This document shows positions 3,563-62,491 of a stretch of 64,000 nt of DNA, one piece after another. Made by a program: the position numbers and the translations under genes. The stretch's first letter is position 1. Each line of letters opens with the position of its first letter. This stretch comes from a virus: the IMG/VR virus record IMGVR_UViG_3300042484_001245, positions 28,931-92,930 of that record; one strand, written 5' to 3'. Below the pieces are notes generated by a model. The model worked only from the letters and a program-made list of their open reading frames with translations, did not search any database and was not told where the DNA came from.

Positions 3563-4795
3563 ATGCCGATTACACAATCATTCATATGCAGAGAACGTGC
3601 TGTTAGAACAAGTGCAACGTCATATACGATTGCAAACATTCCTAACGCAAACACTGAGCAAATCTTTGCGAACGGTGTACTTCAGAACTTTGGTCCAGAT
3701 AACGACTACACTTTGTCTGGAAAAACAATCACATTCAACAGAAACATTGAAGCTGATGAAGTTATACTTGTCAATTATATCTTAGATGTTTTTGTCGCTC
3801 CACCTGAAGACGCAACCATAACGGGAAAAGGTCTTGAGGGAAGAAAAAATTTGATTCATTGGTGCTTACGAAAACTTGGTGCACCAGTTATTGATATTAA
3901 CGTTGATGAAGATCAAATTGAAGATCGTATTGATGAAGCTCTGTTGTATTTCAGAGACTATCACTTTGATGGTGTTGAGCGTGTATATCTTCGTCATCAA
4001 GTTACTGCATCTTCTCTCAAACTAGAAGCACCATTTACTGGTGAAATACAGAAGGGTGCAACTATTGTTGGTCAAACATCTGGCGCTGCTGGTTACGTAT
4101 ACGACAAGTATGTTGATGGCACAACAGTTCGTTTTAAGCATTTAACAACTGCAAAGTTCATCAAAGGTGAAACTGTAGCGATTGATGGCACATCAGATAC
4201 ATTTCAAATACAAAACTCTGACGTAGCTGTTACACTTGGTGATGTTGACAATCACTACATTACACTCAATCAAAAAGTATTGAGTATCACAAACATTATT
4301 CCACAAGAGTCATCGTCTATTGGTGGCAATCTTGGTGGTATGTTTGACTTTCAATACCAGTTTGCATTGAACAATATGTTCAATCTTGCTTCAACTGATC
4401 TTGTTACATATGACATCTATAAGCGTTACATCTCTCAATGGGAATTCATGTTCAGGGGTGCTCGTGGAATCAGATTCAACAGAAAGACTGACAGAGTTGA
4501 ACTCGACATACAAGACTGGATCGTTGATCAATGGATCGTTCTTGAGTGTTGGTCAGCACTTGAGCCATCAACGTTCACAGAGATCTATACAGACGAATTC
4601 GTTCGTGAGTATGCATACAGTCTCATCAAACAACAGTGGGGTGCAAACTTAAAGAAGTTCTCTGGTATTTCGTTACCTGGTGGTGTACTTCTCAACGGTC
4701 AACAAATTTACGATGAAGCAACAGCTGAACTTGAAAAACTTAGAGAGCGTGTTCGTAAAGAGTTTGAGTTGCCGCCTGACTTTTTGATAGGATAG
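3563..4795 (+). CDS. gp13: neck protein gp13
   Basis: 410 residues. The diagnostic segment is near residues 90-140 (GRKNLIHWCLRKLGAP, INVDEDQIEDRIDEALLYF, YHFDGVE), which is the conserved core of T4-like gp13. It is preceded by a beta-rich N-terminal domain. A beta-rich insert follows at about residues 155-220 (GEIQKGATIVGQTSGAAGYV and on), so the protein is longer than T4 gp13. In T4, gp13 and gp14 form the head-completion collar that lets heads join tails. The order 13-14-15-16-17 follows directly, which strongly supports the call. Confidence 0.9.
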   Translation: MPITQSFICRERAVRTSATSYTIANIPNANTEQIFANGVLQNFGPDNDYTLSGKTITFNRNIEADEVILVNYILDVFVAPPEDATITGKGLEGRKNLIHWCLRKLGAPVIDINVDEDQIEDRIDEALLYFRDYHFDGVERVYLRHQVTASSLKLEAPFTGEIQKGATIVGQTSGAAGYVYDKYVDGTTVRFKHLTTAKFIKGETVAIDGTSDTFQIQNSDVAVTLGDVDNHYITLNQKVLSITNIIPQESSSIGGNLGGMFDFQYQFALNNMFNLASTDLVTYDIYKRYISQWEFMFRGARGIRFNRKTDRVELDIQDWIVDQWIVLECWSALEPSTFTEIYTDEFVREYAYSLIKQQWGANLKKFSGISLPGGVLLNGQQIYDEATAELEKLRERVRKEFELPPDFLIG

Positions 4796-4798
4796 TTT

Positions 4799-5656
4799 GT
4801 GGGTAGCAATAAGTATTTCAACTTATATCATCAGAAACAAGAACAGAGTCTTCTCAACGACCTTGTTGAAGAGTCTGTGCGCATTCACTCTATTCAGGGT
4901 ATTTACATACCACGAGAGTCGAGTGGTAATGTTGATCCATTGTTTCGTGAAGATGTACTGAGCAAATTCAATGACTATCACCACGTTGATTTGTACATCA
5001 AGAACGTAGAAGCATTTGAAGGAGATGGTGACATCTTCAGAAAGTTTGGTCTTGATATTAAAAACCAAATCACGTTTTCGATTTCTCGCAAAAGTTTTTC
5101 AAAGATCTTTGGTCGAGAGATGTCACGTCCACGAGAAGGAGATCTCATCTACATACCATTGAGTATTGCAGATGCACTCTATGAGATTCGTTTTGTGCGT
5201 GAAGATAGCGTCTTCTTCAGTCTCGGTGAGTTTTACCTCTACGACTTACAATGTGAGCAAGCAACGTTTGATGATGAAAACATCAAAACAGGCATTGAAG
5301 AGATTGACACAATTGGAGATGAACTATCTCAGATGTTCTTACTCAAACTTGATCCATCTTCTGGTTCAGGCACATTTGAGTATGGAGAAACTATCTACCA
5401 AGGCGAGTCTCTTGAAACAGCTACAGCTAAAGGCACGTTCATATCAGTAGAGCTAAACAACACAATCAAAATCAAAGATGTGTATCAAACTTTTAGAGCA
5501 GAAGATGGTCCAATTAAAGGCGTCAAAAGTGACACACAATTTGACCTCGATGTGAGCTTCGATACGACAGATATTGTCGAAGACTTTGGAGCAAAAAACA
5601 AAGACTTCATTGTGATTGATTTTACAGAGAACAATCCATTCTCTGAAGAGGAGTAA
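4799..5656 (+). CDS. gp14: neck protein gp14
   Basis: 285 residues from a GTG start 3 bases after the gp13 stop. The N-terminus (YFNLYHQKQEQSLLNDLVEE, then IHSIQGIYIPRES) is the hallmark of T4-like gp14. Downstream segments such as FGLDIKNQITFSISRKSF and RPREGDLIYIPLS also fit the family. Gp14 acts with gp13 in the neck to close the filled head and connect it to the tail. No ATG lies near the conserved N-terminus, so GTG is accepted as the start. Confidence 0.9.
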   Translation: MGSNKYFNLYHQKQEQSLLNDLVEESVRIHSIQGIYIPRESSGNVDPLFREDVLSKFNDYHHVDLYIKNVEAFEGDGDIFRKFGLDIKNQITFSISRKSFSKIFGREMSRPREGDLIYIPLSIADALYEIRFVREDSVFFSLGEFYLYDLQCEQATFDDENIKTGIEEIDTIGDELSQMFLLKLDPSSGSGTFEYGETIYQGESLETATAKGTFISVELNNTIKIKDVYQTFRAEDGPIKGVKSDTQFDLDVSFDTTDIVEDFGAKNKDFIVIDFTENNPFSEEE

Positions 5657-5658
5657 TC

Positions 5659-6492
5659 ATGTTTCATTCACCGTTCTATCACTTTACCATGCGCAAAGCA
5701 GTAGCGAGTTTTGGCTCACTGTTTGCAAACATTTTTGTTGTAAAGAGAGACAAAGATGGTAAAGAAGTTGAGCGAGTCAAAGTGCCACTTGCATACGGTC
5801 CAGCTGAACGGTACATTGTTCGTAATCAAGAAGATCCTGAACTTAGCAGAAACTATGCACTGAAGTTGCCACGAATGAGTTTTGAGATTAAGTCACTTGA
5901 GTACGACTCACAGAGAAAACTCAACACACTTCGCAAGAATATACAGCCACTGCCAGAAGATCCTACAACTGTTGTTCGACAGTATCAGGGCGTGCCGTAC
6001 AAGATGACGATAGAGCTTTCGATCATCAGCAAATTTATTGATGACTCAAATCAAATTATTGAACAGATTTTGCCATGGTTCACGCCAGCGTACACTGTGA
6101 CTATCAGAAGCATTCCTGGAATGAATTTTCTCGATGACGTAGCAATCACACTCAATTCACTCAACTTGCAAGACAACTACGAAGATGACTGGACAACTCG
6201 TCGTGATGTCATTTGGACGCTTTCATTTGACTTGAAAGTAATGTTCTACGGACCCACTAAACAGTCGCCAGTTATTCAACGTGCAATTCAAGACATCTAC
6301 GCCGCAAACGGCGACTTGAACGATCCAGAAGTATTAGCAAAACAGTCTCGTGCTATACGAAGTACGATCACGCCTAATCCAGACAATGTGAACTACAACG
6401 AAGAGTTTGGATATTCTGAAACGATAGAATCTTTTACTGATGGAATGCGACTAAATCCTATTACTGGAGAAGACGAACCCATCGAAGACTAA
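5659..6492 (+). CDS. gp15: tail sheath stabiliser gp15
   Basis: 277 residues. The conserved opening (FYHFTMRKAVASFGSLF, then VPLAYGPAERYIVR) and the centre (LPRMSFEIKSLEYDSQRKL) match T4-like gp15, the tail terminator that caps the sheath and joins tail to neck. The ATG lies 2 bases after the gp14 stop. The C-terminus is acidic and low in complexity (NPITGEDEPIED). Position in the 13-17 block agrees. Confidence 0.92.
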   Translation: MFHSPFYHFTMRKAVASFGSLFANIFVVKRDKDGKEVERVKVPLAYGPAERYIVRNQEDPELSRNYALKLPRMSFEIKSLEYDSQRKLNTLRKNIQPLPEDPTTVVRQYQGVPYKMTIELSIISKFIDDSNQIIEQILPWFTPAYTVTIRSIPGMNFLDDVAITLNSLNLQDNYEDDWTTRRDVIWTLSFDLKVMFYGPTKQSPVIQRAIQDIYAANGDLNDPEVLAKQSRAIRSTITPNPDNVNYNEEFGYSETIESFTDGMRLNPITGEDEPIED

Positions 6493-28495: not shown

Positions 28496-30697
28496 ATGTC
28501 AAAACGCATATCATCAAAAGAAACACTTGCTAAGTTGATGGCAACGGAAAACATTTTCGTTGAACACGCTAACGTACCAACGGCTGGTTTCGATCTTATC
28601 AATCGACGGTTGCTTCTCCCTAACTGGAAAAACATCTCCGATGATGTGTACACACTTCTGATTTCGCATGAAGTTGGTCACGCTCTTTACACTCCGACTA
28701 AAGAGTGGGAAGATGCTATTCTCAAGTCTAAAGACATGAATCTCAAACAAGTTGTAAACATCGTTGAAGATGTTCGCATTGAGAAGATGATTCAACAAAA
28801 GTTTCCTGGTACTACTCGTGCCTTTCGTTCTGGATACGATGAGTTAGAAAAGTCCAATCTCTTCGGTACAAAAGATCGTGAGATTACTTCATACGGATTG
28901 CTCGACCGTCTTAACCTTCATTTCAAGATCGGACACTTTGGTTATGCTAACGTTCCGTTCTCTGATAAAGAACGACCTTGGCTTGATCGTGTGTCAGGCT
29001 GTAAATCATTCGCCGATGTTCTCAAAGTAGCAACCGAGTTAATGGAATTCGTTGAGCAGAATCCTGAATCGCAAGGTGATCCTCAAAAGAATCAAGATGG
29101 TGAGGGTGACTCATCTGAGAATGTCCAGATGAGTGAAGACGGCAAGCCTGGTGATAATCAGATTAGTGGTCAACAGTCACGATCACGTTCAATGCGTGGC
29201 AGCCGTTCAGAAGATGGTGAACAAGAGTCACAGGCAGCATCTGGACAATTAGGTGATGACTCATCAAACGAGAAGAGTCAAGATAGTGATGCCGATGGTG
29301 CCAGCTCCGACTCTCAAGAGGGTAATATCTCTGAGACTCAAAAACATTTTGATTCTGCGATTCAGGGACTTGTCGATAAGTCAATCTCTGATACAAAGTA
29401 TGCTAACTTTCCTGAGATCCAACTTGATAAGTTGATCGTTCCTTACAAGACCGTTCATGAGCAGATCACATCGTTCTACTCTAATTACTACTCCACGATG
29501 TATAATCAAGCCTCACAACAGGTTGATCAGTTTCGTAACAGTAGCAAGAATGTTGTGAACCAGTTAGCTAATATCTTTGAGATGAAAAAGAAGGCTAAAC
29601 TTGATGTCAAAGCCCTTACATCCAAGACTGGTAAACTTGACATGAATCGTGTACACTCATACCGCTACAACGATGACGTGTTCAAAAAAGTTACTACAGT
29701 GCCACAGGGCAAGAATCACGGTCTTGTGATGTTCATCGATATGTCAAGCTCGATGAGCGAGAACCTTGCTGGTACGTTTGAGCAATTGCTTAATCTCGTA
29801 TTGTTCTGTAAGAGAGTGAACATTCCGTATGACGTATACGGATTCACTGATTCGTATAGTGCTCGTCGCAATCTTCCTGCACACCCAACTAAGAATGGTT
29901 CGTTGTACTTTGATCCACACTTCTGTCTCCGTCAATACTTCAGTAGCAGAATGACTGGACCTGAGTTTAATCAAGCCCTTCAGAATGTAATATGCCTTAT
30001 GCGTCACTACTCTGGACAGTTGATGAGTGGTCTTCCTTCAGAAGAGATTCTGAACACTACTCCACTTGTTCCAGCTATCATGACTGCAATACCTCTTGTT
30101 CAGAAGTTTCGTCGTGATTATGGTCTTGATGTTGTCAATACGATCTTCTTAACTGATGGTGAAGACACTCACGGACTCTTGTATCACTCTAACACTGGTG
30201 ACACAAAGTATTTTGCGTGTGACCGTTATGGATTTAACCGTGTTACTGAGAAGTATTTTGTTCGTGATGTAAAGACTCGTAAGCAATGGGAAGTTAAGAA
30301 CACGACAAACGATATGCTCAACATCCTTCGTGAGACGGCTGGTGTAAAGACTATCGGCTTTCACATCATTCGTAAGAGAGATGTACCATACGTTGTTGGA
30401 CGCTACACAAAGAACACAAAAGAAGAACAAGCACACGTTGAATGCTTCAAGACGAACAAGTTCGCCGAGATGACTAACATCCCTGGCTACGATGCGTACT
30501 ACTTGATTCCTTCTGGATCGAGTCTCAACGTTGGCGATGACGAGTTCGAGGGTAACGTTGACACTACTGTTGATTGGGACGATGAGAAACAAGCAAAGAA
30601 GGCGATGAAAGCCGTTCAGAAAAGTTTCAACAATTTCATGAAACAGAAAGTTACCAGCCGAATCCTTCTCAACCGCTTTATCGAGCATATTTCATAG
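28496..30697 (+). CDS. CobT-like protein: HExxH peptidase motif plus VWA domain
   Basis: 733 residues from the ATG at 28496, with AAGG upstream. The N-terminal part has LLISHEVGHALY (H58, E59, H62), a zinc-peptidase motif. A long S/Q/D/E-rich linker follows (about residues 180-285), then a helical region and a von Willebrand A domain whose MIDAS motif is MFIDMSSSMSE (near residue 415). This layout matches CobT-like VWA proteins that work with a MoxR/CobS AAA+ partner. Exactly such a partner is the next gene. Cobalt insertion into the B12 ring is the classic role; a general metal-chelatase or remodelling role is also possible. Confidence 0.8.
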   Translation: MSKRISSKETLAKLMATENIFVEHANVPTAGFDLINRRLLLPNWKNISDDVYTLLISHEVGHALYTPTKEWEDAILKSKDMNLKQVVNIVEDVRIEKMIQQKFPGTTRAFRSGYDELEKSNLFGTKDREITSYGLLDRLNLHFKIGHFGYANVPFSDKERPWLDRVSGCKSFADVLKVATELMEFVEQNPESQGDPQKNQDGEGDSSENVQMSEDGKPGDNQISGQQSRSRSMRGSRSEDGEQESQAASGQLGDDSSNEKSQDSDADGASSDSQEGNISETQKHFDSAIQGLVDKSISDTKYANFPEIQLDKLIVPYKTVHEQITSFYSNYYSTMYNQASQQVDQFRNSSKNVVNQLANIFEMKKKAKLDVKALTSKTGKLDMNRVHSYRYNDDVFKKVTTVPQGKNHGLVMFIDMSSSMSENLAGTFEQLLNLVLFCKRVNIPYDVYGFTDSYSARRNLPAHPTKNGSLYFDPHFCLRQYFSSRMTGPEFNQALQNVICLMRHYSGQLMSGLPSEEILNTTPLVPAIMTAIPLVQKFRRDYGLDVVNTIFLTDGEDTHGLLYHSNTGDTKYFACDRYGFNRVTEKYFVRDVKTRKQWEVKNTTNDMLNILRETAGVKTIGFHIIRKRDVPYVVGRYTKNTKEEQAHVECFKTNKFAEMTNIPGYDAYYLIPSGSSLNVGDDEFEGNVDTTVDWDDEKQAKKAMKAVQKSFNNFMKQKVTSRILLNRFIEHIS

Positions 30698-37738: not shown

Positions 37739-38044
37739 ATGAGCGTATTGATTACACGATTGATTACAGGTGAAGAGATTCTTGGTAGCATCACACTTTC
37801 TAATGATGATACGTGCGTGATTGAAAATCCAGTACATATTGCAGCTAGTCAGAATCCTAGCACAGGCAAGATTGACATCCACATGGCACCTTTTGTGCCA
37901 CTGTGTGCAGATAAAGCACTTACAATTAACCTCAAGAATGTGTTGTGTCAATATGAGCCAGTGCTTGAGATCAAGAATAAGTACAGCACAATGTTTGGTA
38001 GCGGAATTATCATTCCATCAAATACTGGTCTTGCTGGCGTCTAA
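37739..38044 (+). CDS. hypothetical protein, LSm-like, second copy type
   Basis: 101 residues starting 1 base after the lysozyme stop. The opening (LITRLITGEEILGSITLSND, then CVIENPVHI) has the Sm1-like pattern L-x-T-G-E-E-I-x-G and the N-P turn. It is similar in layout to the 20927 gene. The C-terminus runs SKSM-type and GIIIPSNTGLAGV-like, small and neutral. RNA binding is possible but unproven. Confidence 0.5.
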   Translation: MSVLITRLITGEEILGSITLSNDDTCVIENPVHIAASQNPSTGKIDIHMAPFVPLCADKALTINLKNVLCQYEPVLEIKNKYSTMFGSGIIIPSNTGLAGV

Positions 38045-38087: not shown

Positions 38088-39554
38088 ATGACAACAGAAC
38101 GTTTCTATACGAATTGCACTTGCATTGGCAACAACATTTTATATCGAGGTATCGAAGACGGCGAGCGAGTGTCGAGAAAGTTTACGTTCAAGCCAAAATT
38201 GTTTGTGCCGACAAACAAGCAAACAAAGTGGAAGACACTTGATGGCAAGTTTGTTGATAAGATCGAGTTTCAAGACATCAACGATGCAAAAGAGTTTGTT
38301 CGCAAGTACGAAGGTGTTGATAATTTCGTATACTACGGCAACACGAAGTATCAGTATGTTCATCTTGCTGATGCTTTTCCGCAGATGGTTGATTATGATT
38401 TCTCACGCATAGTTATTGCCAATATAGATATTGAGGTAGCTTCCGAGGGTGGGTTTGCTCCACCAGAGAACCCTTTTGAAGAAGTGATAGCAATAACTGT
38501 TGAGAGCAATAACACGTATGTTGTCTTTGGCTGCGGTGAATTCACATCTTCAAAGGATAATGTCAAATACATTCGTTGTGAGAATGAAGTTGATCTGCTA
38601 CGACGTTTCATGGCGCATTGGGAACATCTTGCTCCAGACATTGTAACTGGCTGGAACGTTCAGTTCTACGATATTCCGTACATTGTAAATCGAATCTCTC
38701 GTGTATTCGGTGACAAAGAAGCAAAGCGAATGTCACCGTGGAAGTATCTCTCAACACGATCAGCCGCATACAAAGGTCGTATGCATCAAGTTGTCGAGCT
38801 TGTTGGCATCTCTACACTCGATTACATCGAGATGTACAGAAAGTATCAGCCGCGCCAAGAGAGTGAGAAGTTGAACTACATCGCATACGCAGAGCTTGGT
38901 GAAAAGAAGATCTCATATGAAGAATATGGCGACTTGCACACACTGTACAAGAGCAACTATCAAAAGTTCATCGAGTATAACATCAAAGACGTTGAGCTTG
39001 TTCGTAAACTTGAAGAAAAGCTAAAGCTCATCGAGATGGTCGTTGCTCTCGCATATGATGCAAAAGTGAACTATGTTGACACGTTCGCACAAGTGCGTAT
39101 GTGGGACACAATCATCTACAACTACCTCAAGCAACAGAACATCGTGCTTCCTCGATTGCTCGAAAAAGATAAGAGTGCAGACTATGCTGGTGCATACGTC
39201 AAAGATGTTGTGCCTGGTATGTACGAGTGGGTCGTTTCATTCGACTTGAACTCTCTGTATCCTAACTTGATTGCTCAGTTTAATATCTCACCAGAGTGTT
39301 TGTTGCCAGACAAATATCGCCACGTTACGGTACAGTCGCTTTTGAATCGTCAAGTTGATACGAGTGATGTTACAAAAGCTAATATTGGATTAGCAGCTAA
39401 CGGTCACTGTTTCAGTAACGACAAGATTGGATTCTTGCCTGATGTTCTCATGCGTATGTACGAAGATCGTAAGTTGTACAAAAATAAGATGTTGGCTGCG
39501 CAGAAAGAGTTGGAACGAGTCAAAGAAGAAATGCATCGTCGTGGATTGCAATAA
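38088..39554 (+). CDS. gp43: DNA polymerase gp43, N-terminal part (split gene)
   Basis: 488 residues. Exonuclease domain with ANIDIEVASEGG (D114, E116), VTGWNVQFYDIPY and IEYNIKDVELVRKL. Then the palm begins with motif A SFDLNSLYPNLI (D386). The ORF ends in the first finger helix (MLAAQKELERVKEEMHRRGLQ). Motifs B and C are missing here and lie in the ORF at 42270. Together the two parts make 854 residues, a normal size. The pieces must assemble to give an active enzyme. Confidence 0.95.
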   Translation: MTTERFYTNCTCIGNNILYRGIEDGERVSRKFTFKPKLFVPTNKQTKWKTLDGKFVDKIEFQDINDAKEFVRKYEGVDNFVYYGNTKYQYVHLADAFPQMVDYDFSRIVIANIDIEVASEGGFAPPENPFEEVIAITVESNNTYVVFGCGEFTSSKDNVKYIRCENEVDLLRRFMAHWEHLAPDIVTGWNVQFYDIPYIVNRISRVFGDKEAKRMSPWKYLSTRSAAYKGRMHQVVELVGISTLDYIEMYRKYQPRQESEKLNYIAYAELGEKKISYEEYGDLHTLYKSNYQKFIEYNIKDVELVRKLEEKLKLIEMVVALAYDAKVNYVDTFAQVRMWDTIIYNYLKQQNIVLPRLLEKDKSADYAGAYVKDVVPGMYEWVVSFDLNSLYPNLIAQFNISPECLLPDKYRHVTVQSLLNRQVDTSDVTKANIGLAANGHCFSNDKIGFLPDVLMRMYEDRKLYKNKMLAAQKELERVKEEMHRRGLQ

Positions 39555-39579
39555 AAATAATCCAACTCCGATTATTTAA

Positions 39580-39608
39580 TTGAACCACAATTTCGTATTT
39601 GTTATATT
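39580..39608 (+). promoter_or_regulatory. sigma70 promoter for the genes inserted in gp43
   Basis: TTGAAC, 17 bases, TATATT. It lies inside the insert just after the N-terminal gp43 stop. Transcription from here would cover the insert genes and the C-terminal half of gp43. Confidence 0.7.
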
Positions 39609-39617
39609 GTTTGTATA

Positions 39618-39630
39618 GGGTAAGTTACCC
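39618..39630. promoter_or_regulatory. GGGTAAGTTACCC palindrome at the transcript start
   Basis: A 13-bp dyad centred about 16 bases downstream of the -10 box, covering the expected transcript start. It is placed well for an operator, and 4 bases before the ATG at 39634 it could also hide the ribosome site. Confidence 0.5.
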
Positions 39631-39633
39631 TTA

Positions 39634-41172
39634 ATGTTTACGTTAAACAAACAGTATATTATGAAATTGTTATCTGCCATTTTTGACTCTCTCCTAGAGA
39701 CTTCTGATTTTCCTAGTGCATCTCGAAAAACAATCACACTCGCTGATTATTACGCACTCAGAACATACATCGACACTTCGCCTGTTGAGTATCAACGACC
39801 TTACGATCCTAGCCGAGAGAACTCTGATGAGAAAGGATTAGTTCGATACGTTCTTGATGTTTTCTTTTACAGAGACATAAACGCAAATTTACTTCCTGCA
39901 CTTGTGATGCGACAACTTCACATGAAGCAAATTGAGCAGCGTGAGAAAGCAGGACGAAAGAATAACAAGATGCTTGAAATGACAGACGGGCAACACAGAA
40001 CCGTTATCATGTTTAAGTTACTCAGTGGCGAAATCAGAATACCTTCTGGCTACACTGTGATGTTCAAGGGTAGAAACATTCTCATCGGTGATAAGACAAT
40101 ACCTGAACTGATGCAAATGGGATCAGACTATCGAGAACTTATCGAGACGTGTGTATTCTCAATGGAAGTACATCTCGACTATTACTACAACATCTCAGAT
40201 AAACGTGCAGCAGAGATTTTTGCTGAACGAAACTCTGGAGCACCACAATCAAGACAGACTGTTCGTAATTGCCAAACACATAAACTGAGCATTCTTGTTC
40301 GTTCTCTTGCACGAGACATACCAGAGTTTGATACAACGTGTCATCCTCTCATGGCAGTTTCGTCTAACAAAAAGGGTGAACTCATCGGAAAGTTTTACCC
40401 AGGCAAGATGACAAGCGATCTCAACTTTGATGAAGATGTTGCACGAACGTTAGCGACAATCATTGGATACGATAAGCTGTCTAAAGAAGATTCGATGAGC
40501 ATAGATCAAAACTCACTTGATAAACTCTATGCTGATTATGGTGATCAATTGAATCAGAAATACTACAATATGCTGATTCAAGTATTAGATTTTCAGCATC
40601 AATTTTTGAAACACATACATGAGAATTTACGGCGTGATCGTATTGACAAGAGCTTCTGGAATGCTCTTCGTTACGTCTCTGTGATTCTCGTGCATAGAGC
40701 ATATGTTGACAATCGAACACTCTCGTTTGGTGTTGATAAGCGAGCAGCTACCTGGCTTATGTGGACTAAGTTCAATAAGTTCATAAAAGATATGTGTACT
40801 GTGCCAAAGAAAGATCGAGCTAATATCAAACAGACTTTGTTTGAGCGCAGTTTGAATAAGATGAACTGGTATTCAAAGACAAGTGGCACAGGTCTTGCTG
40901 TAGTATTTGCCGCCTTTGATAGATTCTTAAAGAACAATTCGCCAAAATCTTTCGGTGTCATAATGAAAGACAATCGTGAAACGTTCAGTGCAAAAACGAG
41001 ATCGATGTTATACACAGAACAAGATGGTAGAGATGCAATCACAGGTCGCATGATTGATTACAGTGATGCTGTCACTGATCATGTTGAGTGTCGAGCTATG
41101 GGTGGCGAAACAGAAAAGCATAATGCGCAAGTTGTTTCAGAATGCACAAACAGCATGAAGAGTGTGAACTAA
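39634..41172 (+). CDS. DUF262/ParB-like domain plus HNH nuclease
   Basis: 512 residues (or from ATG 39661). The N-terminal half has the DUF262-like pattern VEYQRPYDPS, then LEMTDGQHRTVIMFKLLSG (a ParB-type D-G-x-H-R motif) and AEIFAERNSGAPQSRQTVRN. The C-terminal end is an HNH-type motif: YTEQDGRDAITGRMIDYSDA, then DHVECRAMGGETEKHNAQVV and CTNSMKS. The DUF262-HNH layout is shared with GmrS/GmrD-type modification-dependent nucleases and with mobile endonucleases. Its place within a split polymerase gene favours a mobile role, but defence against rival phages is possible. Confidence 0.7.
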   Translation: MFTLNKQYIMKLLSAIFDSLLETSDFPSASRKTITLADYYALRTYIDTSPVEYQRPYDPSRENSDEKGLVRYVLDVFFYRDINANLLPALVMRQLHMKQIEQREKAGRKNNKMLEMTDGQHRTVIMFKLLSGEIRIPSGYTVMFKGRNILIGDKTIPELMQMGSDYRELIETCVFSMEVHLDYYYNISDKRAAEIFAERNSGAPQSRQTVRNCQTHKLSILVRSLARDIPEFDTTCHPLMAVSSNKKGELIGKFYPGKMTSDLNFDEDVARTLATIIGYDKLSKEDSMSIDQNSLDKLYADYGDQLNQKYYNMLIQVLDFQHQFLKHIHENLRRDRIDKSFWNALRYVSVILVHRAYVDNRTLSFGVDKRAATWLMWTKFNKFIKDMCTVPKKDRANIKQTLFERSLNKMNWYSKTSGTGLAVVFAAFDRFLKNNSPKSFGVIMKDNRETFSAKTRSMLYTEQDGRDAITGRMIDYSDAVTDHVECRAMGGETEKHNAQVVSECTNSMKSVN

Positions 41173-41762
41173 TGTGTGCTGCCATGAATAAACAAGTTAA
41201 GAAGACGATTAAAGAGATAAACAAAATACTCTCAGAGCAGTGTCCGACGTTTACACTTAATGTGGACTCTGTTAGACACTTAGATGCCATACGCTCCGAC
41301 ACAAAACTACAGTTTTATGAAAAGACTCACACATTTGGAGAACCTAAAGTTGTTACTCGAATGTGGAAGCATTTTAAGTGTAGGGGATTACCTAGTGTTA
41401 CGCCAACAAAAACGATCACACTCTATATTGTGATCATGCGCAACAAGAAAACTGGAGAACCACACTATAAGTTTGGCACAACAAAATCTCTGTATGTTGC
41501 TGAACGATTTCTAAAGAAAAGCTCTACGTGGGAGTTTATGCATGAGGCTGTAACATCTCGTGTTGGTCCAAAAGACCAGATGCTTGCTCTCGAAAAGCGC
41601 ATCAAAGAGTTTGCTATGAAGAATGGATTGATTCAAGAAGGTGTTGAAGACTTCATCTTTGGAGGTCACACTGAACTTTTAATACCAACACGTTTAATTC
41701 CTGCTGATAAGTATTGCGACCTGTTGCGAATCTTTAATGACTTTGGGTTTGACGGATTGTAG
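41172..41762 (+). CDS. GIY-YIG-like putative endonuclease
   Basis: 196 residues from the ATG in the TAATG overlap with the previous gene; the ORF also has an in-frame ATG at 41142. The segment TLYIVIMRNKKTGEPHYKFG followed by TTKSLYVAERFLKK has the GIY-YIG shape (L-Y-I-V, then Y-K-F-G-T-T and a conserved R). It resembles the T5orf172/MUG113 branch. Classical G-I-Y is degenerate. With the DUF262-HNH gene it makes two nuclease-type genes in the gp43 insert. Confidence 0.5.
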   Translation: MCAAMNKQVKKTIKEINKILSEQCPTFTLNVDSVRHLDAIRSDTKLQFYEKTHTFGEPKVVTRMWKHFKCRGLPSVTPTKTITLYIVIMRNKKTGEPHYKFGTTKSLYVAERFLKKSSTWEFMHEAVTSRVGPKDQMLALEKRIKEFAMKNGLIQEGVEDFIFGGHTELLIPTRLIPADKYCDLLRIFNDFGFDGL

Positions 41763-41768
41763 TACACT

Positions 41769-42260
41769 ATGTCACACATTAACTGGCAACAATACTTTAT
41801 GGGCATGGCATTACTGGCTGCACAACGTAGCAAAGACCCTAGCACACAAGTTGGCTCATGTATTGTCACAAACGATAATAGAATTATCGGCATTGGCTGG
41901 AATGGAATGCCAAAATCAAAGCCTGGTTATAATAACGACACATCTCTCCCTTGGGGTAAAGACGCTCAAGATCCTCTTGAGAACAAATATATGTACGTTG
42001 TTCATGCTGAGCCAAATGCCATTCTTCATGCGTCAGAAGATGTGTCTGGATGTACAATGTATCTTACTTGGTTTCCTTGTAGTGAGTGTGCCAAGACGAT
42101 AGCACAATCTGGCATTTCTAAACTCGTGTATCTCAAAGAAAATGCAACCGATAGGTATCGAGTCAGTATGGAAGCAGCCAAGAAAATTTTTACCGCATCT
42201 GGAGTTGAATGTATAGAATATGTTGCGAATAAAGATGACATTGTTCTCAAGTTCGACTAG
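41769..42260 (+). CDS. cd: dCMP deaminase
   Basis: 163 residues. Zinc ligands are H79 in VVHAEPNAI (with E81) and C104, C107 in FPCSECA; STQVGSCIV and IGIGWNGMP complete the deoxycytidylate deaminase pattern. It turns dCMP to dUMP for thymidylate synthesis. Unusual is its position inside the gp43 insert, as a metabolic gene carried with two nuclease genes. Confidence 0.93.
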   Translation: MSHINWQQYFMGMALLAAQRSKDPSTQVGSCIVTNDNRIIGIGWNGMPKSKPGYNNDTSLPWGKDAQDPLENKYMYVVHAEPNAILHASEDVSGCTMYLTWFPCSECAKTIAQSGISKLVYLKENATDRYRVSMEAAKKIFTASGVECIEYVANKDDIVLKFD

Positions 42261-42269
42261 AATACAATC

Positions 42270-43376
42270 ATGCAAGATCTTTCAAAACTATCTGATGCTG
42301 AGTTAAAAGCATACGCACGAAAACTCTCGTTTGACATCTCGAAGTATCACAACTTCCAGTTGACGAAAAAGATTCAGCTCAACTCTGCGTACGGAGCGAT
42401 GGGCAATCAATACTTTCGTTTCTACGACATTCGTTTGGCTGAAGCAGTAACACTTTCTGGTCAGTTAGTGATTCAGTGGCTTGCTCGTGACATCAACAAG
42501 TATATGAACACGATTCTTAAAACTGAGAATCACGATTATGTTATTGCAATCGATACTGACTCAATTTACTTGAATCTTAAACAACTTGTTCACACAGTAT
42601 ACAAAGACAAGCTGCCTGAAGACAAATCAAAGATCGTTGACTTTCTCGACAAAGTGGCTAACGAGAAGATTCAAACAGTCATCGACAAAAGTTGTAAAGA
42701 ACTCAGAACATATTTGAATGCACGTTCACAAAAGATGCAGATGAAGCGAGAGTCGATTGCAGACAAAGCAATCTGGACTGCAAAGAAGCGTTACATTCTG
42801 AATGTGTTTGACGTTGAGGGTGTTCGATACGAAACACCGAAGCTCAAGATTCAAGGTATTGAGGCTGTCAAGTCGTCTACGCCAGAAGTGTGTCGTCAGA
42901 AAATTAAAGACGCAATCAAAATCATTCTCACAAAATCTCAATCAGAGTTGCACGGCTATATCGATTCATTCAAGTCTGAGTTTAAGCAGTTGCCACCAGA
43001 GAGAGTTGCGTTTCCTCGTGGCTGCAACGGCATCAGCACATACTCAGATCACAAATCGATTTACAAGAAAGGTACTCCAATCCATGTTCGTGGTGCGTTA
43101 GTGTACAATCGTTTAATCAAAGATAAGAAATTGGATAAGAAATATCCTTGCATCCATGAAGGTGATAAGATAAAATTCATTTACTTGCGTGAGCCAAATC
43201 CGACGCAGGAAAATGTTATCACTATGAGTGAAGATGGTCTTCCGCAAGAACTAAATCTTCACAAGTATGTTGATTACGAATTGCAGTTTGAAAAAACGTT
43301 TGTTGACCCACTCAAGATCATTCTCGATGCAATCAACTGGTCGACAAAGAAGACAATGAGTTTTGATGATTTATAG
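42270..43376 (+). CDS. gp43: DNA polymerase gp43, C-terminal part (split gene)
   Basis: 368 residues. It begins with the second finger helix and motif B (KKIQLNSAYGAMGN, residues 34-46), then motif C AIDTDSIYL (D95, D97), KKRYILN and a thumb domain. The C-terminus WSTKKTMSFDDL is the clamp-binding tail type seen in T4 gp43. It starts ATG-CAA-GAT where the N-part ends TTG-CAA-TAA, so TGCAA is repeated at both junctions. Removal of 2724 bases (908 codons) between them restores one frame. No clear ribosome site precedes the ATG. Confidence 0.93.
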   Translation: MQDLSKLSDAELKAYARKLSFDISKYHNFQLTKKIQLNSAYGAMGNQYFRFYDIRLAEAVTLSGQLVIQWLARDINKYMNTILKTENHDYVIAIDTDSIYLNLKQLVHTVYKDKLPEDKSKIVDFLDKVANEKIQTVIDKSCKELRTYLNARSQKMQMKRESIADKAIWTAKKRYILNVFDVEGVRYETPKLKIQGIEAVKSSTPEVCRQKIKDAIKIILTKSQSELHGYIDSFKSEFKQLPPERVAFPRGCNGISTYSDHKSIYKKGTPIHVRGALVYNRLIKDKKLDKKYPCIHEGDKIKFIYLREPNPTQENVITMSEDGLPQELNLHKYVDYELQFEKTFVDPLKIILDAINWSTKKTMSFDDL

Positions 43377-48541: not shown

Positions 48542-49599
48542 TGAAAAGTTTTGTTGAATACATCACGGAGGCTAATCCAGTTGTCGATAAACAATATCGC
48601 AGCGAAGCCCTGCACGTATTCAATCGAATTATTGCCAAGCTAGAAAATCTAGTCAAAGCAAAATCAACACAGCACATGAAGATTGAGCAATCGACTCGAT
48701 CTCCTGTTTTGTATTTTGATCTTGGTGAATTTCTTGGTGATGGTCGATACAAAGGTGTTAGACTATCATTTGATAGTGTCAATCGCAATTATGGTGGGGC
48801 GTACGGCAATGAATATGGTAAAATTGAACTTGTTCTTGCCATTATGAACATGAGAAAGGTGCGAGATCCTAAATATAAAATGACCAACACCTCATATGAT
48901 GATCATAATGGTTGGGAGTATTCTCCAGCATTTCTTAATTGGGAGGACTCAAGTAATTATGAACACCTTTTGGATACTATAAAGAGAAAGAAAGAAGAAG
49001 TGCGAGACGTTTTTGTTCATGAGTTTATTCATCACATGGACACATTTCGATACAAAAAGTCTGCATACAAATCAGAGCCATCATACAACGACAGAACTGG
49101 CTACGGTCAAGAATATTTCAATCATCCAAAAGAGCTGAACGCCCACACACAAGAAATGATCATGAATATTGATGAGTGGTATAAAACATACTACCTCAGT
49201 ATCGCTACAACACTCAAATCAAATTTTGTAAAGAAGTTTAACTCGGCAAATAATCAAGACCAATATGAAGATGCGATGTTTCTCGCTCATAAGTTTGCAT
49301 TGAACTACGATATGTTTGTTCAATACATTTCGGACAAAAATTTTGCCATAAAAGAGATTAGAGAAAAGATACCTAGAGGAAAACACATTTTCGGAAAACA
49401 CTTAACGGTTGATAACAAGAAAAAGGTTTTAGCTAGACTGTATCAATACTATGATGAAGTGTTGAAGAAGAGGTTTCAGCTTCTTAAATCTACGCTAGAT
49501 AAATTACCAAAGCAATTAAACAATCCAGAAGCCGCAGCGTATGTAAAACTTCATGCGCCTGATGCATACAAAACTCTTCGTAAACTGGGTATGAAATGA
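48541..49599 (+). CDS. capsid-tagged HExxH metallopeptidase
   Basis: 352 residues. N-terminus MKSFVEYITE (capsid-targeting pattern, ITE/A cut). Zinc motif VFVHEFIHHMDTF with H160, E161, H164; a possible third ligand lies in NHPKELNAHTQE about 40 residues later. The C-terminal half is helical and basic. An inactive or shielded protease inside the head that acts after injection is one model; it may also act in head maturation. No close family recognised. Confidence 0.6.
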   Translation: MKSFVEYITEANPVVDKQYRSEALHVFNRIIAKLENLVKAKSTQHMKIEQSTRSPVLYFDLGEFLGDGRYKGVRLSFDSVNRNYGGAYGNEYGKIELVLAIMNMRKVRDPKYKMTNTSYDDHNGWEYSPAFLNWEDSSNYEHLLDTIKRKKEEVRDVFVHEFIHHMDTFRYKKSAYKSEPSYNDRTGYGQEYFNHPKELNAHTQEMIMNIDEWYKTYYLSIATTLKSNFVKKFNSANNQDQYEDAMFLAHKFALNYDMFVQYISDKNFAIKEIREKIPRGKHIFGKHLTVDNKKKVLARLYQYYDEVLKKRFQLLKSTLDKLPKQLNNPEAAAYVKLHAPDAYKTLRKLGMK

Positions 49600-50609
49600 A
49601 AACTTTAGTAGAAGTTGTAAAGAAGAAAAAAGCAGTGTTCGCTTTTGGACGAATGAATCCTCCTACTATTGGTCACGAAAAACTCATCAACAAAGTAATT
49701 GCAGTTGCACGAAAAGAAAACGCAGAGCCGTTTATATTTGTTTCTCATACACAAGATTCAAAGAAGAATCCCTTGTCAAGTAAGCAGAAAGCAAAATACT
49801 TGAGACTTGGAGTTCCAGCAGCTGAAAAACACATCAAAGCAGAATCAACAATCAAAACTCCATTTGATGCTCTTGGTCATTTGATTGATCTTGGCTACAC
49901 TGATGTCATCATGATTGCTGGTGATGATCGTGTTGCAGATTTCAAAAAGTCTATTGGCAGTTATGTTAATCATCCAGATCCTGATAAGAGCTTTGAGTTA
50001 AACTCATTCAAAGTTGTTAGTGCAGGTGCTCGTGATCCAGATGCTGATGGTGCTGAAGGAATGAGCGCAACGAAAATGCGACAAGCTGCGACATCAAATG
50101 ATTTTGCATCTTTCAAGAAAGGTGTGCCATCGAATCTCAGTGACAAGTTTGCTCGTGAGATGTTTGATGAAATTCGCAAAGCTATGCACATTGTTGAAAT
50201 GGTCGAAGAGATTCAAAAACTCAAGAACACTCTCAATATACCACGCAAGAATATGCCACAGATCAAGCGAGAGTTCATACCAGATTTTATTAAGAGACTT
50301 GACAAACTTGGTGTTGACGTTGCAAAGCGTGATGTAAGCGTTCGCACTCTCAAGCCAACACAGTCAGAAGTGAACATGAATAAGGTGCGTGAGAAGCACG
50401 AGAAGTTTGTGAGTGGTAAGAAAGAGCCTAAGCCATTCATCGTATCATACGACAACTTTATATTGGACGGTCACCATCAGTTGTTGGCTCTTCAGACTTT
50501 GGATAAAGACATTAAAGTGCCATGCTACGTCATTGGCATACGAATGAAAGACTTATTGCAGTACGCACATGACTATCCAAAGACAACTTATAAAGACATA
50601 GACGACTAA
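49596..50609 (+). CDS. NadR/FAD-synthetase-type nucleotidyltransferase fused to a ParB-like domain
   Basis: 337 residues, starting in an ATGA overlap. The N-terminal domain has FGRMNPPTIGHEKLI (the H-x-G-H-type motif of nucleotidylyltransferases), then IMIAGDDRVADF and GMSATKMRQAA (the I-S-S-T-x-x-R-type motif). The C-terminal domain has PFIVSYDNFILDGHHQLLAL, a ParB/sulfiredoxin-like D-G-H-H motif. The product could be an NAD- or CDP-type adenylyl or cytidylyl transfer. The N-terminus (MKTLVEVVKK) recalls the neighbours' tag but lacks the E at position 10. Confidence 0.65.
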   Translation: MKTLVEVVKKKKAVFAFGRMNPPTIGHEKLINKVIAVARKENAEPFIFVSHTQDSKKNPLSSKQKAKYLRLGVPAAEKHIKAESTIKTPFDALGHLIDLGYTDVIMIAGDDRVADFKKSIGSYVNHPDPDKSFELNSFKVVSAGARDPDADGAEGMSATKMRQAATSNDFASFKKGVPSNLSDKFAREMFDEIRKAMHIVEMVEEIQKLKNTLNIPRKNMPQIKREFIPDFIKRLDKLGVDVAKRDVSVRTLKPTQSEVNMNKVREKHEKFVSGKKEPKPFIVSYDNFILDGHHQLLALQTLDKDIKVPCYVIGIRMKDLLQYAHDYPKTTYKDIDD

Positions 50610-60559: not shown

Positions 60560-62491
60560 ATGTCTAAACTTCCTACGCTTTATCAGCAATTCATCCATCT
60601 TTCTCGCTACAGCCGATGGCTGCCAAATGAAAAAAGACGAGAAACTTGGGAAGAAACTGTTGATAGATATTTCGATTTTTTTGAAACACACTTACAAAAT
60701 CGTTGCGAATACACACTCAAGAAAACAACACGAGAAGAATTAAAAGAAGCTATTATTGCACTTGATGTTATGCCATCAATGCGTTGCTTGATGACGGCTG
60801 GCCCAGCATTAGAGCGTGACGAGATTGCAGGCTATAATTGTTCGTTTGTTGCTATTGATAGTCCACGTTCGTTTGATGAAATTCTATACATTCTTTCATG
60901 TGGTGTTGGAGTAGGATTTTCTGTCGAACGGCAATACGTCTCTCAACTGCCATCAGTATCAGACGAGTTCTATGATACAGATACAACAATTGTTGTGCAA
61001 GATTCAAAGATCGGATGGGCAAAATCACTTAAAGAGTTAATCGGACTTTTGTATCAAGGTCAAGTTCCAAAGATTGATGTGAGTAGAGTTAGACCTTCTG
61101 GTGCACCATTGAAAACATTTGGTGGTCGTGCATCAGGTCCAGCACCACTCGTAGCACTATTTGAGTTCTGTATCAAAACATTCAAAGGTGCAGCTGGCAG
61201 AAAGCTACAGTCAATTGAGTGTCACGACATCGTGTGCAAGATTGCAGAAGTAATCGTTGTCGGTGGTGTTCGTCGTTCAGCACTAATTTCTTTGAGCAAT
61301 CTTTCAGACGACAGAATGCGAGCAGCAAAATCTGGTCAGTGGTGGATAGAAAATGTACAGCGAGCACTTGCAAACAACAGTGCTTGTTATACTGAGAAGC
61401 CCGACATTGGCATCTTTATGGACGAGTGGAAGTCTTTGTACGAATCTCGCTCTGGTGAACGAGGCATCTTTAATCTTGTTGCAGCGAAGAAGAGCGCAGA
61501 AAATCTTGGCACAAATTCTCATGGCGACCCTCGAAGAGATGCATCAAAGATCGCTGGCACAAATCCATGTGCTGAGATTCTTCTCCGCAACAAAGGCTTC
61601 TGTAATCTTTCAGAAGTTGTTGTTCGTGCTGAAGATACAAAAGAAACACTACTCAAGAAAGTAGAACTTGCGACGATACTCGGCACGTTTCAATCAACTC
61701 TTACTGATTTTAGATACCTCTCGAAAGAGTGGAAAAAGAACGCAGAAGAAGAGCGATTGCTTGGTGTATCACTCACTGGTATTCTTGATAACTTGTTCAT
61801 GTCAACTCCAAGCGATGCGTTGAAAGAGTTCTTACTTGAATTGCGTGACAAAGCAATTGAGACAAATAGAAAGTGGGCAAAGCTGTTGGGTGTTCCTGAG
61901 TCTGCATCCATCACTTGTGTTAAGCCATCTGGCACAGTGTCTCAGCTCGTAGACAGTGCGAGTGGTATTCATCCTCGCCACTCTGATTACTACATCAGAA
62001 CAGTGCGAGCTGATAACAAAGATCCATTGTGCACACTGATGAAACAGATGGGATTTCCTAATGAGCCTGACGTTACAAAACCAGAACACACAACTGTGTT
62101 TTCGTTCCCTGTGAAGTCACCTGACCACGCACGTTTTAGAAATCAAGTTTCTGCTATTCAGCATCTTGAACTTTGGTTGTTCTACAAGAAGTATTGGGCA
62201 GAGCACACAGTGTCTATCACGATCTCTGTAAAAGAGAATGAATGGCTTGATGTTGCAGCGTATGTGTTTAAGCACTTTGATCACATTTCTGGAATATCAT
62301 TCTTGCCATTCAGTGATCATGTGTACAAACAAGCTCCATACCAAGACTGTACGAAAGAACAATATCAAGCTCTTTGTTCCAAGATGCCTCAGGATGCTGA
62401 CTGGTCGAAATTGCATATATACGAGAAGGAAGATACGACCACATCCACACAAGAATTGGCTTGTGTAGCAGGCTCGTGTGAACTTACATAA
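60560..62491 (+). CDS. nrdJ: adenosylcobalamin-dependent ribonucleotide reductase (class II, monomeric)
   Basis: 643 residues. Key residues: C94 in GYNCSFVAI, C337 in TNPCAEILL (radical cysteine with nearby E) and the C-terminal pair CVAGSC (C635, C640). KGFCNLSEVV and SITCVKPSGTVSQLVDSASG fit the monomeric class II (RTPR-like) family, shorter than the Lactobacillus enzyme. It makes deoxynucleotides from ribonucleotides using B12, without a NrdB partner; none is seen here. T4 itself uses a class I enzyme. The CobS/CobT pair may be tied to its cofactor need. Confidence 0.9.
   Translation: MSKLPTLYQQFIHLSRYSRWLPNEKRRETWEETVDRYFDFFETHLQNRCEYTLKKTTREELKEAIIALDVMPSMRCLMTAGPALERDEIAGYNCSFVAIDSPRSFDEILYILSCGVGVGFSVERQYVSQLPSVSDEFYDTDTTIVVQDSKIGWAKSLKELIGLLYQGQVPKIDVSRVRPSGAPLKTFGGRASGPAPLVALFEFCIKTFKGAAGRKLQSIECHDIVCKIAEVIVVGGVRRSALISLSNLSDDRMRAAKSGQWWIENVQRALANNSACYTEKPDIGIFMDEWKSLYESRSGERGIFNLVAAKKSAENLGTNSHGDPRRDASKIAGTNPCAEILLRNKGFCNLSEVVVRAEDTKETLLKKVELATILGTFQSTLTDFRYLSKEWKKNAEEERLLGVSLTGILDNLFMSTPSDALKEFLLELRDKAIETNRKWAKLLGVPESASITCVKPSGTVSQLVDSASGIHPRHSDYYIRTVRADNKDPLCTLMKQMGFPNEPDVTKPEHTTVFSFPVKSPDHARFRNQVSAIQHLELWLFYKKYWAEHTVSITISVKENEWLDVAAYVFKHFDHISGISFLPFSDHVYKQAPYQDCTKEQYQALCSKMPQDADWSKLHIYEKEDTTTSTQELACVAGSCELT

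Follow-up and report, generated by a model that had tools for sequence, protein, structure and literature searches.

The DNA polymerase gene (gp43) of a T4-like phage, contained in the IMG/VR record IMGVR_UViG_3300042484_001245, is divided into two open reading frames (ORFs) with three further genes between them. The window analyzed here is a stretch of 64,000 nucleotides (nt) covering positions 28,931 to 92,930 of this 92,930-base virus record; positions given below without a locus name are those of the window, and the two halves and everything described between them lie on the plus strand. According to our analysis, the split was probably inherited, the junction between the halves acts as a landing site for other genes, and the first of the intervening genes, ORF1, was gained later, probably as a homing-type element. 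The major capsid protein of the phage is at most 58% identical to those of cultured phages, the nearest being phages of Methylophilales, Pelagibacter and Stenotrophomonas.

The N-terminal half (N-half, gp43A; 38088–39554, 488 aa) contains the exonuclease domain, the palm with motif A and the first finger helix, ends in RRGLQ-stop, and matches the Pfam families DNA_pol_B_exo1 (3e-22) and DNA_pol_B (1e-15). The C-terminal half (C-half, gp43B; 42270–43376, 368 aa) carries the second finger helix, motif B (NSAYGAMG), motif C (DTDS) and the thumb. Both halves match the PHROG DNA polymerase family phrog_262 (E values of 1e-164 and 2e-144), as well as the separate families that PHROG already holds for N-halves (phrog_2062) and C-halves (phrog_1918), and together they make up a full family B polymerase with all motifs. 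In the alignment, the break falls between motifs A and B, at the tip between the two finger helices, which is also the position of the break in Aeromonas phage 44RR. The pair is flanked by a 101-aa ORF (37739–38044) and uvsX, and encloses ORF1, ORF2 and a dCMP deaminase gene (dCD). The split is therefore real and a polymerase of two presumed subunits is encoded, in agreement with a preliminary description of this DNA. The low amino-acid divergence, as opposed to the high synonymous divergence, suggests that the halves are functional. Precedent for their assembly exists, since split 43A and 43B proteins co-purify and show activity (PMC2988022). The five nearest cultured phages have an intact gp43 of 830–854 aa, and in intact relatives the finger tip is about 25–30 residues shorter than in the split gp43 of the window.

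The preliminary description attributed the split to one insertion into an intact gp43 with duplication of a 5-bp target, TGCAA, after which new stop and start codons were acquired, so that precise removal of the insert would restore one reading frame. The two copies do lie at 39547–39551 and 42271–42275, and their spacing of 2724 nt is divisible by three. We nevertheless regard this explanation as highly improbable. The first copy lies across the final codons of the N-half and comes from a short insertion at this point that is absent from the related locus L316; the window shares this insertion with L081, and it yields GGATTGCAATAA. L316 carries a homologous ORF1 insert, yet its N-half ends in GGATTGTAA, without TGCAA; in L317–L320 this half ends in RRGL- or RRGI-stop. 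The second copy belongs to the ATG-CAA start of the C-half and is conserved in relatives without ORF1: ATGCAAGAT is also found at this position in L318–L320, and the start reads ATGCAAGA(T/C) in L316 and L318–L320, whether ORF1 is present or absent. When the sequence around the two ends was shuffled, a shared 5-mer compatible with the frame arose by chance in 6% of cases for windows of 16 nt and in 60% for windows of 50 nt. Alignment with unsplit gp43 of relatives at the junction revealed tips that are shorter and different, so excision would not regenerate an intact gene, and many phages have the same split with no insert at all. The two copies arose separately and their repetition is due to chance, not the footprint of a duplication; L316 and L318–L320 refute the single insertion. 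Because L316 lacks the N-terminal TGCAA and relatives without ORF1 have ATGCAAGAT at the start of the C-half, the split must be older than most of the insert.

An intron of group I or II with ORFs inside it, from which the polymerase would be rejoined by RNA splicing, has its parallel in the group I intron in 43B of Aeromonas phage 25, and phage polymerase genes are known to have introns. Against this stand the Rfam search, which gave no match at E ≤ 1 and no catalytic RNA core, the possession by each half of its own start and stop codons, in frame at the insert ends, the retention of the split in relatives with zero insert, and the unrelated metabolic genes among the cargo. We reject the intron, which seems very unlikely. 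The footprint argument fails, and comparison with other phages leads to a more general picture, in which genes land repeatedly at this junction and the split is itself able to spread.

The comparison covered 292 loci (numbered with the prefix L) with both halves of gp43, 253 intact and 39 split; the queries were chosen, and these counts do not estimate a frequency. After the removal of duplicate contigs and of L190, whose polymerase is broken elsewhere, 34 loci share the break of the window, and L316–L320 add five; L231 was excluded for its broken frames. In 15 loci the insert is zero, with the stop codon of the N-half overlapping the start of the C-half (TAATG or TGATG). The other junctions hold various genes: HNH nucleases of phrog_655 (L004, L045, L166 and L181, and a broken one in L231) or of the phrog_374 type (L179 and L235), a SegE-like GIY-YIG gene (L187, a weak match), a remnant of a DUF559 nuclease (L042), metabolic genes (PurM-like in L030, IMPDH/GMPR in L085 and DNMK in L088), a 2OG-Fe(II) oxygenase gene (L094) and, in the remaining loci, small ORFs without assigned function. 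The HNH gene of L235 is inserted exactly at TA^ATG, while L237–L239, with 95% identical polymerase, have the bare TAATG overlap, so that L239 represents the empty site. Behind this insert the C-half apparently starts at ATT, preceded by a Shine-Dalgarno sequence that the insert supplies, as in L179 and Synechococcus phage ACG-2014f. The start of the HNH gene itself is hidden in a hairpin with the motif TATAAATA in its loop, as has been described for homing endonuclease genes of T4 (PMC2988022).

Several observations on these junctions may be added. The apparent AUU start of the C-half in L083:4947–5001 (KJ019151, ACG-2014f), L179 and L235 lies about 5 bases behind the Shine-Dalgarno sequence and opens a conserved I/M-GYLIGG; the annotation of ACG-2014f begins the C-half later, at an internal codon. 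An extension of about 20 residues, MGYLIGG..., is conserved at the C-half start of zero-insert splits (L018, L036, L065, L127, L248 and others) and is absent from the C-half of the window and from intact gp43. Intact gp43 with the lengthened finger helix of the split type occurs in L241, L244 and L245, which may be pre-split or re-fused. In L190 (3619–4501) a GIY-YIG-like gene with TATAAATA in front of it breaks gp43 upstream of the fingers, at about residue 406.

Close relatives of the window record the order of events. The arrangement is N-ORF2-dCD-C in L318, L319 and L320, with the N-half stop overlapping the ORF2 start in L319 and L320; N-ORF2-dCD-HNH-phosphoesterase-C in L317, where the HNH and phosphoesterase genes are additions between dCD and the C-half; N-ORF1-ORF2'-dCD-C, with a diverged ORF2, in L316; N-ORF1-ORF2-dCD-C in the window; ORF1-ORF2 followed by a dCD remnant in L081; and N-IMPDH/GMPR-C in L085. 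These gene orders indicate that in the lineage of the window ORF2 and dCD came first and ORF1 later; L317–L320, in which the boundary between the N-half and ORF2 lacks ORF1, represent its empty site.

The window and L081 also share a tract of recent exchange around ORF1. Fourfold degenerate sites differ by 37–38% over the initial 300 nt of gp43 and the two genes upstream of it, and by about 5% in the middle of the N-half and in ORF1, with one divergent patch inside this stretch (39288–39487). Beyond ORF1, the difference is 13% for ORF2 and 20% for the C-half. The contrast between 50 differences at 133 sites upstream and 15 at 278 sites in 38688–39287 plus ORF1 is strong (Fisher 7e-16). The N-half region is not simply slow to change, because between the window and the control L086 the fourfold sites differ by 55–70% throughout the part of the N-half covered. 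Such a pattern, found in one phage pair, points to a recent transfer of ORF1 with co-conversion of its flanks.

ORF1 (39634–41172, 512 aa; the start is possibly at 39661) combines DGQHR/GmrS-like motifs in its N-terminal part (Q54R55, D118GQHR122 and F196xxxN200) with a C-terminal HNH motif (D482H483-x13-N497-x8-N506), whose spacing equals that of H54-N68-N77 in 4H9D. In PMC4619093, QR, DGQHR, FxxxN and D-H-N-N are given as motifs of DGQHR/GmrS domains and of HNH nucleases. The gene was found in three sequences (the window, L081 and L316), in each case directly behind the N-half, and all three keep QR, DGQHR, FxxxN and D-H-x13-N-x8-N; in the homologue of L316 every motif residue is retained at 58% overall identity to the window. 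This homologue matches GmrSD_N at 4.7e-5 and 24 bits, under the curated Pfam cut-off of 33.2, and for this reason ORF1 was not filed as GmrSD; we describe it as GmrSD-like with a classic HNH motif. ORF1 of the window itself gave no match to GmrSD_N (PF03235) or to anything else in Pfam, PHROG, PADLOC and the PDB sequences, only unrelated weak matches in NCBIfam, and nothing meaningful among phage records (tblastn) or in one scan of a bacterial and archaeal genome collection. Its AlphaFold model is uninformative (predicted local distance difference test, pLDDT, 32).

The ORF1 start region (39603–39658) is covered by a predicted RNA structure of -17.6 kcal/mol (z -3.7). L316 has a comparable one (-21.6, z -3.75; inner hairpin GGGTAAGTTACCC versus GGGCAAGTTGCCT), and in both sequences the ORF1 start lies within or behind this strong structure. 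We consider ORF1 a probable homing-type HNH nuclease, a putative role read from its motifs. The spacer after the N-half stop (39555–39602) contains CCGATTATTTAATTG at about 39569–39583, which is identical in the window and L316 while the DNA around it has diverged and which is possibly a promoter or a recognition site.

ORF2 (41142–41762, 206 aa) overlaps ORF1 and belongs to a fast-evolving family found at the junction in close relatives, with the invariant residues K110xG112, R122 and E151. Its members are only 23–36% identical among these relatives, whose C-halves are 85–91% identical, and ORF2 thus turns over fast. The best member of the family matches phrog_681 ("endonuclease") at 2e-6, and a low-confidence model (pLDDT 49) gives b-b-a-b-a over residues 91–160. 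No fold match to this model was obtained with Foldseek, ORF2 has no match in Pfam, and hhalign of the family against a GIY-YIG-like protein gave 3%, that is, nothing. Tentatively, ORF2 may be a GIY-YIG-like endonuclease. The dCMP deaminase gene (41769–42260; PF00383, 1e-26; phrog_174) is reduced in L081 to a 3' remnant: 23 of 39 nt agree in register with the 3' end of the window gene (0 of 20,000 shuffles), and the remnant with the C-half start agrees with the dCD 3' end and C-half start of L320 in 57 of 63 nt. We conclude from these matches that dCD was lost in L081.

In other T4-like phages, a block of fingers, split and HNH gene has replaced the matching part of intact polymerases. The protein of L004, which is split and has an HNH gene, is mostly 95–100% identical to the intact L164 and L041 over residues 1–400 and after about residue 545, and only about 40–50% identical between them. 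At the nucleotide level, the identity of L004 and L164 is 80–97% (mostly at least 90%) over the N-half up to about position 6000, 48–63% up to about 7080, and 82–98% thereafter. The foreign block, about 1.1 kb long, runs from the last part of the N-half through the HNH gene into the first part of the C-half. Inside it, L004 is similar to L166 (70–93% nucleotide identity), which is far less similar outside the block. The same mosaic pattern, against other intact polymerases, occurs in L042, L045, L166 and L181. On the backbone tree, the distribution of split and intact genes requires 12 changes, a number as low in 98 of 500 shuffles; on the finger tree it requires five (0 of 500). A single clade of L004, L166 and L181 is rejected on the backbone (log-likelihood difference, dlnL, 706; approximately unbiased test, pAU 3e-7), whereas on the finger tree these three form a starred group with L042. 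The trees were built by a fast method and have long branches for the window and L088, which limits finer conclusions. A foreign origin of the fingers of the window itself was considered and is not supported; their identity with those of L085 fits vertical descent.

Taken together, these results point to an ancestor whose gp43 would already have been split at the tip of lengthened finger helices, through which gp43A and gp43B would bind each other, the present insert not being the cause. The junction would be a site where insertions are tolerated. In the lineage of the window it first held ORF2 and the dCMP deaminase gene and later gained ORF1 behind the N-half. The most likely mode of spread of ORF1, probably along with ORF2, is that of a free-standing homing-type element. 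In a mixed infection, ORF1 would cut the allele of a relative that has no ORF1 there, and repair or recombination would copy it along with flanking polymerase sequence. A related precedent is that nuclease genes sit at exchange boundaries between phages (PMC10448857). We are evenly divided on the broader proposition that the finger-tip break is a mobile landing site for nucleases of several unrelated families, that a cassette of fingers, split and nuclease converts intact polymerases so that the split state is inherited horizontally, and that ORF1, with its DGQHR domain and HNH motif, is a new type of homing nuclease using this site.

Some points weigh against a homing element in an inherited split. 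The exchange tract also fits ordinary recombination under selection; the assignment of ORF1 in the window depends on motifs, the exact HNH spacing and the sub-threshold GmrSD_N match of a homologue; and that of ORF2 as a nuclease is weak, given the low-confidence model, the lack of a fold match and the hhalign result. A late-promoter motif of the kind present in L004 and L235 was not found in front of ORF1. The relatives are metagenome contigs, any one of which could be a chimera, although the mosaic recurs in the four further loci named above. The junction genes could also be ordinary cargo of the replication region, serving dNTP supply and DNA repair and co-expressed with the polymerase, with ORF1 and ORF2 benefiting the phage, e.g., by competitor exclusion, instead of being selfish. 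The dCMP deaminase in the window and L316–L320 and the other metabolic genes in L085, L088 and L030 would suit this alternative, as would the fact that GmrSD-like proteins are restriction enzymes (PMC4619093). We find it unlikely in view of the several different nuclease families at one junction, the exchange tract around ORF1 and its patchy presence, and the placement of an HNH gene exactly at a stop/start overlap.

Splits of this kind were known previously. The split gp43 (43A/43B) of Aeromonas phages 44RR2.8t and 25 was reported by Petrov, Ratnayaka and Karam (2010; cited in PMC2988022), and the parallel drawn in the preliminary description, with its reservation about gene content, holds. 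In 44RR, gp43 is broken at the same finger-tip position (...ASRGVKLDH-stop / MELEL...); in phage 25, a homing endonuclease gene lies between the halves in addition to the intron in 43B, so that the junction tolerates extra DNA, as in the window. The window differs in its inserted genes (DGQHR-HNH, ORF2 and dCMP deaminase), in that no intron was found, and in its distant lineage, and its relatives reveal the order of events and the transfer of the split. In all listed isolates of ACG-2014f (Atlauavirus), gp43 likewise consists of two coding sequences separated by genes at the same position, but only two small ORFs lie there, and identity to the window is 44% (N-half) and 55% (C-half). The free-standing Seg/Mob homing endonucleases of the T4 type and the nrdA gene of phage Aeh1 split by mobE (PMC2988022) likewise place a nuclease gene between parts of an essential gene, and share with the window an RNA structure over the start and presumed homing with flank co-conversion; a DGQHR/GmrS-like domain distinguishes ORF1, whose nuclease role is putative, and no match of ORF1 to a known Seg/Mob family was obtained. 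ORF1 resembles the GmrSD type IV restriction enzymes (PMC4619093) in the succession QR...DGQ(H)R...FxxxN and D-H-N-N in one polypeptide. It has classic HNH spacing instead of DUF1524, is phage-encoded at a gp43 junction and falls under the Pfam cut-off.

What is new here is ORF1, the metabolic cargo and the horizontal movement of the split. Whether a nuclease splits gene 43 or invades a gene that is split already was not decided in a 2010 review of mobile elements in T4 (PMC2988022). The same junction is now seen empty, filled and transferred; the comparisons answer the question for two lineages, that of L235 and, with ORF1, that of the window, where the gene had been split before it was invaded, and L004 displays a third route, in which the split is transferred into an intact gene. 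The origin of two-subunit polymerases thereby becomes testable, and the junction suggests itself as a natural site at which an essential enzyme tolerates interruption and the arrival of new genes.

Additional genes were noted in the course of the analysis. L320 has a putative N6 DNA methyltransferase gene (4695–5339) between the C-half and uvsX. In the window, positions 49596–50609 encode a protein that combines a cytidylyltransferase-like domain with a weakly matching ParB-like nuclease domain, and positions 60560–62491 a ribonucleotide reductase of 643 aa in which the B12-dependent insertion domain is present.

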